A DNA stretch of 25,110 nt from a virus: IMG/VR virus record IMGVR_UViG_3300042383_001393, positions 1 to 25,110 of that record; one strand, written 5' to 3'. Made by a program: the position numbers and the translations under genes. Each line of letters begins with the position of its first letter. The stretch's first letter is position 1. Under the pieces are notes generated by a model. That model was given only the letters and a program-made list of their open reading frames with translations. It did not search any database and was not told the DNA's origin. This document shows, piece by piece, positions 3,323 through 25,110 of this stretch.

Positions 3323-3351
3323 TTGACTAAAGTTGAGCAATTTGCTATACT
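3323..3351 (+). promoter_or_regulatory. Sigma70-type promoter TTGACT-17-TATACT
   Basis: TTGACT at 3323-3328, 17-base spacer, TGC then TATACT at 3346-3351. Transcription would begin near 3358, giving the gene at 3416 a leader of about 58 bases. It could continue into the structured RNAs and tRNA-Met. Confidence 0.8.
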
Positions 3352-3415: not shown

Positions 3416-3700
3416 ATGGTTGTTATCAATGGTAAGCAGTGCAGTATTGAGTTTTATCGGCAGCTGGCTCCAGTGACGTTTTTCCAGCGTGGTCGGCAGG
3501 TCACACAGAATCGCATGAGCACCACCGCTGTGCTGGTGGGCGAGCAGGGTGAGGTGATGGATGTCGCCACCGTTAAGCCCTACCACAAGGATGCGTACAA
3601 CCGCAAGAAGGCCAACGAAGCTGCTGTTCACAAGCTGGCGGAACAGTTCGAGCCCACTGTTAAGGTGCAGATTCTGCGGGGCTTCTTCAACAAGCCGTAA
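3416..3700 (+). CDS. Hypothetical protein (94 aa)
   Basis: A 94-residue protein preceded by AGAGGAT, a good ribosome site 6 bases before the ATG, and by a strong sigma70-type promoter, so probably an early gene with a conventional leader. The product is basic and has a predicted strand-rich first half (MVVINGKQCSIEFYRQL, TTAVLVGEQGEVMDVATV) and a helical second half (DAYNRKKANEAAVHKLAEQF). Codon use looks richer in G+C than its neighbours. It is followed directly by the structured RNA pair at 3710-3933. No family recognised. Confidence 0.75.
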   Translation: MVVINGKQCSIEFYRQLAPVTFFQRGRQVTQNRMSTTAVLVGEQGEVMDVATVKPYHKDAYNRKKANEAAVHKLAEQFEPTVKVQILRGFFNKP

Positions 3701-3709
3701 CAACGATTT

Positions 3710-3812
3710 TGCAGATTAGCAAACAGACTGTATTTAAAAAGGTTGGACTTATAATCCATCCATTAATAACCCTCGCAGTCAGGGTCACCGTTAGGAAGTT
3801 TGCTAATCTGCA
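3710..3812 (+). ncRNA. Structured RNA element A (tandem with element B)
   Basis: A perfect 15-base-pair stem (3710-3724 with 3798-3812) closes 73 bases. Inside are GACTG (3726-3730); a hairpin GGTTGGA/TCCATCC with one mismatch (3741-3747 and 3755-3761) and 7-base loop CTTATAA; and a hairpin ACCCT/AGGGT (3769-3773 and 3781-3785) with loop CGCAGTC. The loop CAGTC (3776-3780) can pair with GACTG, a pseudoknot. Element B keeps this layout with a wholly different outer stem. Not a tRNA: no D arm or TTCRA loop. T4 encodes two stable RNAs of unknown function in its tRNA cluster, a possible analogy. Confidence 0.75.
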
Positions 3813-3820
3813 TAACAATT

Positions 3821-3933
3821 TCACAGTGTGAACTCAACTAACTAGACTGTTTTGAAAAGACTAGAACTAGAACTAGATCATTAAAATGACCCTCGCAGTC
3901 GGGGACCATAAAGTAGTTGAGTTTACATTGTGA
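3821..3933 (+). ncRNA. Structured RNA element B (tandem with element A)
   Basis: A 20-base-pair stem (3821-3840 with 3914-3933), containing two G-U pairs, closes 73 bases. As in element A, GACTG (3845-3849) follows the stem, and a hairpin CCCT/GGGG presents the loop CGCAGTC (3894-3900), whose CAGTC can pair with GACTG. Shared strings are AGACTGT, CATTAA and ACCCTCGCAGTC. The central hairpin of element A is replaced by three tandem copies of CTAGAA/T. The outer stem has no sequence match to that of A, yet pairs fully, which argues for selection on structure. Confidence 0.75.
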
Positions 3934-3948
3934 TTTTAATCTGAGTAT

Positions 3949-3976
3949 GGACCCGTAGCTCAATGGAGTTAAAGGC
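3949..3976 (+). pseudogene. tRNA 5' fragment (truncated duplicate of tRNA-Met)
   Basis: GGACCCGTAGCTCAATGG is nearly identical to the first 18 bases of the tRNA-Met starting at 3984 (two differences). It stops after the D-loop region with no anticodon or T arm. Probably a remnant of a tRNA duplication or of homing-endonuclease activity in the tRNA cluster. Confidence 0.65.
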
Positions 3977-3983
3977 AAAATGT

Positions 3984-4060
3984 GGACCTGTAGCTCAGTG
4001 GTCAGTAGCGATCGGCTCATAACCGAAGGGTCGTTGGTTCAATCCCAACCAGGTCCACCA
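3984..4060 (+). tRNA. tRNA-Met (anticodon CAU)
   Basis: Acceptor GGACCTG pairs with CAGGTCC. The anticodon stem TCGG/CCGA holds loop CTCATAA (anticodon CAU). The T arm is GTTGG-TTCAATC-CCAAC, with discriminator A and encoded CCA. The D stem is weak (three pairs). CAU may be read as Met or, if lysidine-modified, as Ile; sequence alone does not decide. The 3' end of the minus-strand endonuclease ORF overlaps it by 44 bases. Confidence 0.9.
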
Positions 4061-4700
4061 ATAAAAAATTTCCGGTTCTAATTGCTTTGATTTCTTGTTC
4101 TTTAACAATCTTCAAACAATGCGGAAATTCTTTCCACTTAGCTCGATCACGTTCAGTTTCAAAACCTTTTACTTCAATCCAAAGATTTAGTTCAGGAAGA
4201 TAAAAGTCAGGGAAATATTTCCTAGTTTGACCTTCCCAATAGTAAGGAAACGAAGTTCCACGTTCAACTTTGAGGTTTTGTTCTAAACACCATTTATAAA
4301 AATCAAGTTCCCATTTACCCTGACAAATAAAATCATTATGATAATATCTTTTTGTTCTACGTGAGTTTCCATAAAGATGTGATTCGGGATGATTTTCAAC
4401 TGCTCTTGCCATAGATTTTTTGTGATTTTCTCTAGCTTCTAGAGACATTCTGCGTTTTTTGTTTGCTTCACTAATCTTTTTTCTTGTTGACTCAGCGATA
4501 ACATATTCCTCTCCAGTTTGTTTGGATTTGATATGTTGATTAGACCCTTTCTTTCCTAACATCCCGTAAGAAGGTTTTATTTTCGATGGGTTTGGATTGT
4601 GATGGCATCGAATTTCGTGTTGAGCGTTTGAGTTTTTTGTTTTGGCAGGCCTTCCGCAATACTGACATTTTAGAAGGTGTTCGGTATCAGATAAATACAT
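4017..4700 (-). CDS. Homing endonuclease, PD-(D/E)xK type with zinc finger and NUMOD-like repeats
   Basis: A 227-residue enzyme. Residues 12-32 form a zinc finger, C12-x2-C15-x12-H28-x3-C32. Residues 64-100 carry NUMOD3-like DNA-binding motifs (STRKKISEANKKRR). The C-terminal nuclease domain has E131, then PD165-F-Y-L and E176-V-K178, the catalytic pattern of the restriction-endonuclease fold seen in some phage homing enzymes. The start at 4700 is chosen because AGGGAG lies 9 bases upstream; an ATG at 4745 and a TTG at 4772 are alternatives. The gene sits between tRNA-Met and tRNA-Leu(UAG), on the opposite strand. The last 14 codons read the antisense of tRNA-Met and give the tail GIEPTTLRL, a known artefact of antisense tRNA, so the original C-terminus may have been lost. 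Confidence 0.85.
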   Translation of the reverse strand: MYLSDTEHLLKCQYCGRPAKTKNSNAQHEIRCHHNPNPSKIKPSYGMLGKKGSNQHIKSKQTGEEYVIAESTRKKISEANKKRRMSLEARENHKKSMARAVENHPESHLYGNSRRTKRYYHNDFICQGKWELDFYKWCLEQNLKVERGTSFPYYWEGQTRKYFPDFYLPELNLWIEVKGFETERDRAKWKEFPHCLKIVKEQEIKAIRTGNFLLVDLVGIEPTTLRL

Positions 4701-4842
4701 TTGCTGTGACTCCCTAGAAGTTATAGAGTGGTTGGATAGTTGCATATCGCGAACCACAAATATATTTAGCAAAGATTACTCAAAGTGGGCAATTTGCTCA
4801 AAGGGTCTACCAAGTTTTTTCGGTCTTCCACCCAAGGGTAGA

Positions 4843-21510: not shown

Positions 21511-21729
21511 ATGTCAAAAGACGATTGTATTAGAATGACCGGCGTAGTGGTGGATGTTCTACCCTCTACAACCTTCCGGGTACAGATTACTGAAGAACAC
21601 AGTGTATTGGCGTACATGAGCGGAAAAATGCGCAAAGCCAAAATCAGGATTATCCTGGGAGATACTGTGGATCTGGAAATCAGTCCTTATGATCTCACCA
21701 AAGCGAGAATTGTTTATAGAGTCAAGTGA
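21511..21729 (+). CDS. infA: Translation initiation factor IF-1
   Basis: A 72-residue protein, exactly the length of bacterial IF-1. It matches IF-1 over its whole length: S-K-D-D-x-I-x-M-x-G-V-V at the start, V-L-P-S-T-T-F-R-V (strand 2), the signature loop S-G-K-M-R-K-x-x-I-R-I at about 38-48, G-D-x-V-x-L-E-x-S-P-Y-D-L and the end K-A-R-I-V-Y-R. This is a single OB fold that binds the 30S A site beside IF-2 and IF-3. The conserved Lys/Arg of the RNA-binding loop (K40, R42, K43) are present, so it should be functional. Phage-encoded IF-1 is rare but has been reported from some very large phages. It precedes the superoxide dismutase gene, which has its own late-type box, by 15 bases. Confidence 0.93.
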   Translation: MSKDDCIRMTGVVVDVLPSTTFRVQITEEHSVLAYMSGKMRKAKIRIILGDTVDLEISPYDLTKARIVYRVK

Positions 21730-21744: not shown

Positions 21745-22293
21745 ATGAAAGAGTACATTAAACTATTCGAAGCAGAGAAGAGACCAGACAAACTCAGTCT
21801 GGTCTCTTTGCCTTATCGCACTGATGAGCTTGAGCCCGTGATGAGTCAGGCCACGGTGGAATATCATTATGGCAAGCTGAGTCGAGGATACGTGGACCGT
21901 TATAATGCGGGCGAGGGCGACCCTGATTTTAACTATGGTGGAGCCATGTTGCACAATCTTTTTTGGCCACAGCTTCGACCACCTGGTGGTGCCAACAAAC
22001 CCACCGGATTGATCTTGGACAAAATTAATAAAGAGTTTGGTGACTACGAAAACTTTAAAGAAAAGTTCATTGAAGCAGCAATGGCACTGCAAGGATCTGG
22101 TTGGTGTTATCTCAGCAGAGCTGGTGATATTCGCACGCTGGCCAATCAGAACTACAACAAATCTATTGTGTTGGCGGTGGATCTTTGGGAACACAGCTGG
22201 ACCGTTGGAGAAAACAAGCCAGACAAAGCTCGTTACATTAAGAATATCTGGAAAATCATCAACTGGGATGTTGTGAATCAGAGGTTGGTATGA
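21745..22293 (+). CDS. sod: Compact Mn-type superoxide dismutase with candidate capsid-targeting leader
   Basis: Converts superoxide to oxygen and hydrogen peroxide. All four metal ligands of Fe/Mn superoxide dismutases are present: H41 (EYHYGK), H70 (MLHNLFW), D146 and H150 (VDLWEHSW). Y49 fits the active-site tyrosine. G66, where Fe enzymes have Gln, and Q135 in LANQN, where Mn enzymes have their active-site Gln, indicate the Mn or cambialistic type. H41 to H70 is 29 residues, against about 47-55 in E. coli SodB and SodA, so the helical hairpin is much shortened, and the usual second-shell KHH is KLS. Ahead of the domain is MKEYIKLFEAEKR, which resembles the leader of T4 internal proteins with a cut after L-F-E or A-E. 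The 182-residue gene overlaps the phosphoesterase gene by four bases. Confidence 0.92.
   Translation: MKEYIKLFEAEKRPDKLSLVSLPYRTDELEPVMSQATVEYHYGKLSRGYVDRYNAGEGDPDFNYGGAMLHNLFWPQLRPPGGANKPTGLILDKINKEFGDYENFKEKFIEAAMALQGSGWCYLSRAGDIRTLANQNYNKSIVLAVDLWEHSWTVGENKPDKARYIKNIWKIINWDVVNQRLV
21778..21808 (+). repeat. Perfect 12-base-pair hairpin inside the start of the superoxide dismutase gene
   Basis: AAGAGACCAGAC pairs perfectly with GTCTGGTCTCTT across the 7-base loop AAACTCA. It begins 33 bases after the A of the ATG and encodes the junction between the leader and the enzyme domain. Confidence 0.85.
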
Positions 22294-22772: not shown

Positions 22773-25110
22773 ATGAGTCAGCAACTGATCAATATTGGTA
22801 ACGTAGCAAATGATGGTACTGGTGTTCGCCTTCGCGACGCTTTCAGAATCATAAACGAAAACTTCACAGATTTATACACTGCCGGAATCACCAACTATGC
22901 TAATGTGGTGAGTTTTCCAAATGCTACACAAAACATTGGTGTCACTGCATACAGCGTGGCTGAAGATCTGATGTATTTTAGCAATGGAGCCAGTTGGCAG
23001 CCATTGCTAACCAATGACAGCAATATTGTTTTGTTTGGAAACTTGGTAGCAGGAAATATTGACGCCACTGGTTTAGTCAATATAACTGGAAACATTTCAG
23101 CCACTCTGGGCACGTTCTCTAATGCCACAGTAACCAGCAATGCCACTTTTGGCAACATCAACTCAGTGAGCGGCATACTAAGTGTAACTGGCAATGCCAA
23201 TGTGGGCAACCTGGGAACAACCGGATTGATCACAGCCACAGCCAATATCACTGGTGGCAATTTGATTACCGCTGGTATTTTGAGTGCTGGCAACGTCACA
23301 GCTAGTTCAAACATCAGTGCTGGCAACATTAACTCAGTGAGTGGCATACTAAGCGTCACTGGCAACGCCAATGTGGGTAATTTGGGCGCCGGCGCAGGGG
23401 TTTTTACAGGAACGTTGAGCGTGACTGGCAACGCCAATGTGGGAAACATTGGAGCAAATGCAGCGGTACTGGCTGGCCCACTCAGTGGCGTGACCACAAT
23501 CAATGCTAGTGGCAACGCCAATGTGGGAAACATTGGAGCAAATGCAGCGGTACTGGCTGGCCCACTCAGTGGCGTGACCACAATCAATGCTAGTGGCAAC
23601 GTCAATGTGGGCAATATTGGAGCCACAAATTCAGTCATCACAGCCAATGGCACATTCGGCAACATTAACAGCGTCAGTGGTATACTTTCTGTAAGCGGTA
23701 ATGCCAATGTGGGCAACATTGGCGCAGCGGTGGGGGTGTTTACCAGCGACATTATTGGGCAATCCAATCTATCAATAACCAGCAACATCACTGCTGGCAA
23801 TATCAACGGTGTGAGTGGCATTCTGAGTGTAACTGGCAATGCCAATGTGGGCAACATTGGCGCTGGTAATGCAGTAATAACAGCCAATGCCACTTTTGGA
23901 AATATCAACGGAGTCAGTGGTATTTTGAACGTGAGCGGTAACGCCAACGTGGGCAACATTGGAGCCACAGCAGCGGTACTGGCTGGTTCACTGAGTGGTG
24001 TGACCACGATCAGCGCCAGTGGCAACGCCAACGTGGGAAACGTTGGTGCCACCAGAGGTGTTTTTGGCAGCATTGTAGGTAACTTGGAAACACCGTCACA
24101 ACCCAATATCACTGTGGTGGGAACTCTTACTGGCCTCACAGTGAGTGGAAACGTCATTGGACAGAGTAATCTAGCAATCACCAGCAACATCACTGCTGGC
24201 AATATCAACGGTGTGAGTGGTGTCCTGAACGTCACTGGCAACGCCACTGCGGATTTAGTGATAACCAACAATAACGGAAATGGTACCAATTACCGTGTGG
24301 GAGATGACATCTGGATTGGCGACATTAACATTACCAACACCATGAGTTTGAGAGGTGGTCAGGATGCAGCCAATGCTTATGTTGTGTTCGGTAATGCCAA
24401 CAATTATAAACTGGGACGTGCTGGCGTTGGTGCTCTGACCTATGATGATGCATTCACTGTGGCGGGCAATATCACTGGTCAAGCTAATTTGTTTGTGACC
24501 AGCAATATCACTGCGGGCAACATCAACAGTGTGAGTGGAATACTGAGTGTAACTGGGAACGCTAATCTGGGCAATGTTGGCGCCAACAATGCAGTGTTCA
24601 CCGGAACGCTGAGCGTAACTGCTAACGCCAATGTGGGCAACCTGGGAACTGCTGGTTTGATCACAGCCACTGGTAACATCACTGGCGGCAACGTGGTCAG
24701 CAACGGCAATCTAGACACCAGTAACCTGTTGGTTACCAACAACTCCAATTTGGGTAATGTAGCAAATATTAAAATTTCTGGAGGCAGCCCAGATTATGTG
24801 TTAAAAACCGACGGCGCAGGCAATCTCAGCTGGGTGGCTGCTGGCGTTGTAAGCGGCGGAACAGCAAATCGGTTGGGTTATTATGCAACCACAGGTTCAA
24901 CAATCACCGACACTGGTGCAAATTTAACCTGGAACGGAACAGATACTCTCACAGTGACTGGCACAGTGAGTGCCGGCAATCTGAGCGGCAACCTTACCAC
25001 AGCAGCACAACCCAATATCACATCTGTGGGGACACTGGGCAGTCTCACAGTGACTGGCAATCTCTCAGCTGGAAACATCAGCAGTGGTGGAGGGTTAAGC
25101 GTAACAGGTA
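22773..25110 (+). CDS. Repetitive tail-fibre-like structural protein (partial, runs off the right edge)
   Basis: Open for 779 codons to the window end. It begins MSQQLINIGNVANDGTGVRLRDAFRIINENFTDLY, the N-terminal signature of many phage tail-fibre and neck/whisker-type proteins (N-D-G-T-G, then L-R-D-A-F and I-N-x-N-F-x-x-L-Y); I give it here only as a description of conserved residues. The rest is Gly/Asn/Thr/Val-rich repeats: the unit SVTGNANVGNIGA and close variants occurs about 11 times, alternating with ITAGNING/SVSGIL and AVLAGPLSGVTTI. Such repeats form long beta-helical or collagen-like rods. Two adjacent units are an exact DNA duplication (23427-23594). Toward the right edge, SPDYVLKTDGAGNLSWV and RLGYYATTGSTITDTG are typical of distal fibre segments. 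Probably a receptor-binding or fibre shaft protein. Confidence 0.82.
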   Translation, partial: MSQQLINIGNVANDGTGVRLRDAFRIINENFTDLYTAGITNYANVVSFPNATQNIGVTAYSVAEDLMYFSNGASWQPLLTNDSNIVLFGNLVAGNIDATGLVNITGNISATLGTFSNATVTSNATFGNINSVSGILSVTGNANVGNLGTTGLITATANITGGNLITAGILSAGNVTASSNISAGNINSVSGILSVTGNANVGNLGAGAGVFTGTLSVTGNANVGNIGANAAVLAGPLSGVTTINASGNANVGNIGANAAVLAGPLSGVTTINASGNVNVGNIGATNSVITANGTFGNINSVSGILSVSGNANVGNIGAAVGVFTSDIIGQSNLSITSNITAGNINGVSGILSVTGNANVGNIGAGNAVITANATFGNINGVSGILNVSGNANVGNIGATAAVLAGSLSGVTTISASGNANVGNVGATRGVFGSIVGNLETPSQPNITVVGTLTGLTVSGNVIGQSNLAITSNITAGNINGVSGVLNVTGNATADLVITNNNGNGTNYRVGDDIWIGDINITNTMSLRGGQDAANAYVVFGNANNYKLGRAGVGALTYDDAFTVAGNITGQANLFVTSNITAGNINSVSGILSVTGNANLGNVGANNAVFTGTLSVTANANVGNLGTAGLITATGNITGGNVVSNGNLDTSNLLVTNNSNLGNVANIKISGGSPDYVLKTDGAGNLSWVAAGVVSGGTANRLGYYATTGSTITDTGANLTWNGTDTLTVTGTVSAGNLSGNLTTAAQPNITSVGTLGSLTVTGNLSAGNISSGGGLSVTG
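23427..23594 (+). repeat. Exact 84-base tandem duplication in the fibre gene
   Basis: Copy 1 (23427-23510) and copy 2 (23511-23594) are identical and in frame (28 codons). Other repeats in the gene differ at many third positions, so this duplication is recent or homogenised. An assembly artefact is possible. Confidence 0.9.

Follow-up and report, generated by a model that had tools for sequence, protein, structure and literature searches.

Tandem homologous elements predicted to fold as pseudoknotted RNAs beside a phage tRNA-Met gene

Phage T4 carries two stable RNAs beside its tRNAs, RNAC and RNAD, which have been seen on Northern blots and among late RNAs and whose roles are unknown (PMC9697503, PMC3014915). 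Comparative handles on such RNAs have so far been scarce. Small structured RNAs beside tRNAs are a kind of phage RNA known from T4; the fold and the family described here, which we term the A/B family, are previously unrecorded, being absent from Rfam and not found in searches of open-access papers. The locus holds a pair unrelated to the T4 RNAs in a T4-like place; its fold is definite, it shows covariation, and a second phage is available for comparison. The locus lies in a 25,110-nt stretch of viral DNA (positions 1 to 25,110 of IMG/VR record IMGVR_UViG_3300042383_001393), called the window below. The window encodes a ClpP-like protease, IF-1, an Fe/Mn superoxide dismutase, a member of the 2'-5' RNA ligase family, a NUDIX protein and a 387-aa protein common to PA5oct and Sinorhizobium phages, and its proteins link the phage to large T4-superfamily and jumbo phages. 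At its end, positions 22895-25110 show internal repeats with self-similar blocks of about 85-114 bases in an alignment to a sister contig, which may represent a plus-strand structural gene rich in repeats.

Elements A and B follow each other between a small ORF and tRNA-Met, with an outer stem (P1) that encloses two hairpins (P2 and P3):

3323-3351, plus strand: candidate sigma-70-like promoter, TTGACT-17-TATACT, the second hexamer being preceded by TG; a consensus match, the regional total of such matches being near chance
3416-3700, plus strand: ORF of a 94-aa basic protein (pI 9.8), stop codon 9 nt before A
3710-3812, plus strand: element A, whole structured RNA, P1 of 15 bp around 73 nt
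3710-3724, plus strand: A, P1 5' strand UGCAGAUUAGCAAAC, perfectly complementary to 3798-3812 and recovered by the descriptor scan too
3726-3731, plus strand: A, pseudoknot 5' strand GACUGU, partner of 3775-3780
3741-3761, plus strand: A, hairpin P2, GGUUGGA-CUUAUAA-UCCAUCC
3769-3785, plus strand: A, hairpin P3, ACCCU-CGCAGUC-AGGGU, with loop positions 3775-3780 as pseudoknot 3' strand
3798-3812, plus strand: A, P1 3' strand GUUUGCUAAUCUGCA
3821-3933, plus strand: element B, whole structured RNA, P1 of 20 bp around 73 nt
3821-3840, plus strand: B, P1 5' strand UCACAGUGUGAACUCAACUA, 20 unbroken pairs with 3914-3933, including two G-U
3845-3850, plus strand: B, pseudoknot 5' strand GACUGU
3859-3879, plus strand: B, hairpin P2, GACUAG-AACUAGAA-CUAG(A)UC
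3890-3904, plus strand: B, hairpin P3, CCCU-CGCAGUC-GGGG, with loop positions 3895-3900 as pseudoknot 3' strand
3914-3933, plus strand: B, P1 3' strand UAGUUGAGUUUACAUUGUGA
3984-4060, plus strand: tRNA-Met (CAT), the next gene after B

The coordinates, stem lengths, 73-nt interiors, GACTG strands and CGCAGTC loops that the initial annotation assigned to both elements are all exact. On the plus strand, A has a minimum free energy of -35.3 kcal/mol (z -5.65) and B of -29.7 kcal/mol (z -3.42), each beating 200 of 200 dinucleotide shuffles. The minus strand of A folds well, too. We take plus as the RNA strand because the G-U pairs of B, in P1 and closing P3, become mismatches on the minus strand and because the neighbouring ORF and tRNA lie on plus.

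From 5' to 3', both elements run through P1, GACUGU, an A/U-rich linker, P2, a linker beginning with CAUUAA, P3, a further linker and P1 again, P3 being of the CCCU/AGGG type with 4-5 bp and the 7-nt loop C-GCAGUC. The shared pseudoknot proposed earlier between GACTG and CAGTC holds and can be drawn more sharply, as 6 bp between GACUGU and GCAGUC that end in a U-G pair and leave one loop C unpaired. The bare duplex (five Watson-Crick pairs plus U-G) amounts to about -6.7 kcal/mol. Between P3 and the loop helix, one strand is continuous and a single C bridges the other side. Judged from its sequence, the core would thereby be a circularly permuted H-type pseudoknot, with the last strand moved to the front, locked inside a stem. 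We are highly confident that both elements are real, structured and homologous, the pseudoknot included.

The homology of A and B is confirmed by a covariance model trained on B plus a variant of it, one base different, from a sister contig: in the window, this model gives A 43.5 bits (E 1.3e-6), the next-best match reaching 17 bits. In the alignment of A with B, 11 pairs carry two-sided changes and 97% of cells are paired, compared with 27-44% in controls whose partners are slid by 1-3 columns. Identity amounts to 40% in the P1 arms (in the model's register) and to 79% in the unpaired core. The variant comes from one of three near-identical sister contigs of the same phage species (the longest with 10 mismatches in 22.8 kb); the only difference among them in the A/B region is a change from C to T at 3867, in the P2 loop of B in contig L003.

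RNA-pattern scans of the viral collection return, among the matches listed, the three sister contigs and one independent contig, L236/L238. L238 is a 15.9-kb viral contig of a distantly related phage, in which the gene order is the same as in the window: ORF, A', B', tRNA-Met. Its ORF encodes 96 aa and is 49% identical to the 94-aa ORF of the window; A' starts 3 nt past the stop codon and B' 5 nt beyond A'. A' is clearly a family member. It is scored at 37.4 bits (E 1.1e-5) by the model of A and B, its P1 of 13 pairs with two mismatches is very unlike those of A and B in sequence, its P2 differs too, and its pseudoknot reads GACUGC/GCAGUC.

B' is scored by the models at 17-20 bits (E 0.08-0.28). 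Its P1 is composed of a 13-bp outer part, an 18-nt insertion and a 7-bp inner part with one bulge, and it carries two P2 hairpins. The loop of its P3 (GCCC-CGCGGUU-GGGU) has its partner, AACCGU, just within the inner P1; compared with A and B, this pseudoknot (AACCGU/GCGGUU) replaces G-C by A-U and U-A by C-G, pairing being kept. The plan of pseudoknot and P3 alone arises in 99 of 3,000 shuffles of the B' interior, and together with the adjoining inner P1 in 17 of 10,000. Since competing local hairpins are possible, membership of B' is probable, short of certain: it is probably a diverged member that keeps the architecture and little core sequence, identified mainly by position and plan, with added support from its place beside A'. 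Elsewhere in L238, a structured-looking stretch between B' and tRNA-Met (2416-2541, z -2.24) fits neither the A/B models nor Rfam, and the gap between tRNA-Met and tRNA-Arg contains a perfect 15-bp hairpin (2647-2689, CTTTATCATAGTTGA/TCAACTATGATAAAG). The two phages also share an unusual gene pair: IF-1 (window 21511-21729, Pfam E 4e-22) adjoins Fe/Mn superoxide dismutase (21745-22293, E 4e-22) and is adjacent to it in L238 as well.

We delimit the family by a P1 of at least 13 bp, a P2, a P3 of 4-5 bp and a 7-nt loop, all of whose bases but the first pair with a strand just inside P1. All of these are found in A, B and A', and in B' with the P1 insertion and two P2 hairpins; the family is therefore present beyond the window's species, in L238. 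When A, B and A' are compared (with the B variant, four distinct rows), two-sided changes occur in 17 of 31 pairs and 96% of cells are paired, counts that lean toward P1, P2 and P3 because the alignment was fitted to a model of these helices, the pseudoknot pairs being outside it. Slid structures are 30-40% paired, and none of 500 column shuffles equals the real alignment. In P2, five of the six modelled pairs have changed on both sides, and identity in the unpaired core is 60-79% among the three elements. The pseudoknot pairs, identical in A and B, change from U-G to C-G in A' and show the two compensatory changes in B'. Moreover, complementarity in L238 is matched within elements, A' with A' and B' with B', each having its own pseudoknot sequence.

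Together with the recovery of A by the B-only model and the syntenic pair in the second phage, these pair counts bear out the initial annotation's description of tandem homologous RNAs with covarying stems. Broken stems at homologous loci had been named as evidence that would speak against it; at the single related locus found, the stems are kept with changed sequence. As a distant phage keeps the pair, its place and its fold despite this sequence change, it is very probable that the phage produces genuine structured RNAs. The same findings bear on the alternative that A and B act as DNA, namely as inverted repeats at mobile-element ends, hairpin sites or origin elements. Long inverted repeats do lie here beside an endonuclease-like gene (window 4017-4712). 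However, B contains G-U pairs in P1 and P3, U-G is tolerated in the pseudoknot, the crossing helix carries compensatory changes, the position between ORF and tRNA is fixed, and in L238 no endonuclease-like ORF adjoins tRNA-Met or the A'/B' pair, all of which makes a DNA-level role most improbable.

Beyond the window species, L238 is the one contig in which these searches find the A/B family. The check by covariance models that had been proposed for phage genomes adds no further member: the RNA models were run on about 55 records of related or jumbo phages, many of them fragments, which include the closest phages by ClpP-like protease (63% and below), T4, Sinorhizobium Phosso and phiN3, Pseudomonas PA5oct and Caulobacter Cr30. 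A weak match in Cr30 (22 bits) is inside a RuvC-like gene, has no P3 and was dismissed as chance. Searches by blastn of annotated phages (near and distant) and plasmids (distant) give only tRNA-Met or chance matches, an RNA-pattern scan of GTDB genomes gives two matches that are presumed chance, and three other RNA patterns recover from the viral contigs, among the matches listed, only the sister contigs and chance. Contig L235, which has the hairpin motif, was set aside, its outer stem being absent and the R3 model giving no match. Protein scans of the viral contigs lead to the sister contigs, again to L238 and to distant relatives, and a descriptor scan of tRNA-rich relatives reveals no convincing diverged copy. 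Given that these searches yield no further member, the family is either narrow or outpaces the models by fast divergence.

Rfam 15, whose tested families include ribozymes, riboswitches, pRNA, antitoxin RNAs and resistant RNAs, gives only tRNAs and sub-threshold chance matches in the window and L238, at gathering thresholds and at E up to 10; no family matches A/B or A'/B'. The initial annotation had further stated that the elements are not tRNAs, in agreement with the silence of both ARAGORN and the Rfam tRNA model (E up to 10) on A and B. A tRNA origin of A, considered for its anticodon-like 7-nt P2 loop CUUAUAA, was rejected, the loop being absent in B and A'. The statement that no known ribozyme is present likewise stands as far as Rfam matches go (none). 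Compact pseudoknotted cores, a closing stem of free sequence, tandem copies and conserved unpaired residues would suit self-cleaving ribozymes that process the ORF-tRNA transcript, but at E up to 10 no Rfam ribozyme matches, and a catalytic centre would be expected to retain its unpaired core sequence, much of which B' has lost. We consider ribozymes very unlikely.

The 94-aa protein upstream of A, whose orthologue in L238 has a pI of 10.6, yields a confident small alpha/beta model (mean pLDDT 82). The PDB offers no match with E below 0.1 and Pfam no family that passes the cut-off, so it is the charge alone that suggests RNA binding. The promoter-like sequence at 3323-3351 precedes the ORF, which the initial annotation named an early gene and which may be one, and could drive it together with A, B and tRNA-Met; in L238, a promoter-like TTGACA-17-TAGAAT is found ahead of a tRNA-Leu gene, itself upstream of the ORF. 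None of the three gaps (ORF to A, A to B, B to tRNA-Met) contains a convincing promoter or terminator. At window 3341-3351 and at L238 141-151 and 1576-1586, a promoter-like TTTGCTATACT is followed by TGAGTAG or AGAGTAG ahead of ORFs and tRNAs, a recurrence that possibly marks a phage promoter class. Directly upstream of the intact tRNA-Met, positions 3947-3982 hold a partial duplicate of its 5' part (GGACCCGTAGCTCAATGG), probably a relic of tRNA duplication or deletion. The 3' end of tRNA-Met is abutted by the minus-strand endonuclease-like ORF (4017-4712; PHROG 15137, E 6e-22). A tRNA with anticodon CTA, called tRNA-Pyl by ARAGORN, is present in L239 (9794-9867; contig 3300042568_001401 of the same phage) and in L270 (16792-16865) and is a possible amber suppressor; TAG ends 4 of the 32 ORFs counted in the window.

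In the simplest reading, one transcript would comprise the ORF, A, B and tRNA-Met. Building on the observed homology, pairing, covariation and synteny, we infer for A and B, at close to but short of an even chance, that they are paralogous functional RNAs that would be co-transcribed, excised via P1, stable and active in trans. The long P1 stems would serve as processing stalks cut by a double-strand-specific RNase (RNase III type), the compact bodies would persist as small stable RNAs, and, as the analogy with RNAC and RNAD suggests, these might act in trans on a protein of the host or of the phage. Against this reading count the restriction of the family to two phage lineages, the weak match of B' (20 bits, E 0.28) and the lack of an own promoter or clear terminator for A and B.

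The short distance between stop codon and A (9 nt in the window, 3 nt in L238) suits a role in the 3' UTR at least as well. There, the folds would remain in cis within the ORF/tRNA transcript and stop exonucleases as tandem resistant RNAs of flaviviruses do, shielding the small-protein mRNA at its 3' end or the tRNA precursor on its 5' side. This is consistent with A following an orthologous ORF so closely in both phages, with the occurrence as a tandem pair and with an architecture that outlives its sequence: B' changes pseudoknot and P2 and keeps the plan, and with its core sequence mostly lost, it suits a mechanical role more than one in which its sequence is recognised in trans. In contrast, the identity of 60-79% in the unpaired core of A, B and A' exceeds what a pure roadblock needs, Rfam gives no match, known resistant RNAs included, and the pseudoknot partner of A and B is 5' of the hairpin, the order in flavivirus resistant RNAs being the reverse. 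A cis roadblock is the main rival, though less likely than not. Stable RNAs acting in trans are slightly preferred over it because of the conserved unpaired core and the T4 precedent.

The same 9-nt spacing of a pseudoknot-containing stem past a stop codon is classical for stimulators of readthrough or frameshifting, which A could be for the upstream ORF. Yet the frame past the stop ends after 17 codons in the window and after 6 in L238, neither with a conserved peptide, and the spacing in L238 is just 3 nt. Stop-codon readthrough was rejected for these short frames, and we give such a stimulator hardly any credence.

Among known systems, flavivirus xrRNAs resemble A and B as tandem, compact, pseudoknotted, three-way-junction-like RNAs beside a coding region; A and B differ in that the pseudoknot partner is upstream of the hairpin and within a long closing stem, and in having no Rfam match. 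The phi29 packaging RNA (Rfam Phage_pRNA) is likewise a phage RNA with a long closing helix and loop pairings. Its loop pairing occurs between molecules, whereas complementarity in the A/B family is matched within each element, again with no Rfam match.

ToxI and related type III antitoxin RNAs are tandem pseudoknot RNAs as well, with units of roughly 36-50 nt. A and B differ from them in unit size, closing stem and gene context, and no Rfam match connects them. As tandem pseudoknots of phage origin, A and B might nevertheless be decoys or mimics of a host defence RNA such as a type III antitoxin, and escape from type III systems is documented for phages of the T4 family (PMC5449768). With units of about 103-120 nt, a 15-20-bp closing stem and no toxin-like gene recognised beside them, we judge A and B very improbable as decoys.

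The comparison with T4 made in the initial annotation stands for position and fails for homology. As in T4, small RNAs occur in tandem next to a tRNA gene in a phage of the T4 superfamily, and a gene for a homing endonuclease is close. The A/B models miss RNAC and RNAD: the R2 model, run with filters off on the T4 tRNA cluster, gives at best 9.6 bits (E 0.89) with the wrong plan, and the R3 model has no match in the whole of T4. Unlike A and B, RNAC has a tRNA-like T-arm hairpin (GGGUUCGAAUCCC), and its predicted fold is without the long closing stem and the loop-to-strand pseudoknot. A and B may tentatively, and with less than even likelihood, be an undescribed class of phage RNA, an unlike pair with a permuted pseudoknot in a long stem, that during infection would target the translation or RNA-decay machinery of the host; we regard this as conjecture. 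The A/B pair, whose nearest positional analogue is RNAC and RNAD of T4, comes with a structure that can be tested, a narrow sequence target and a conserved protein next door. It indicates that structured RNAs unlisted in Rfam occur in the tRNA regions of large phages.
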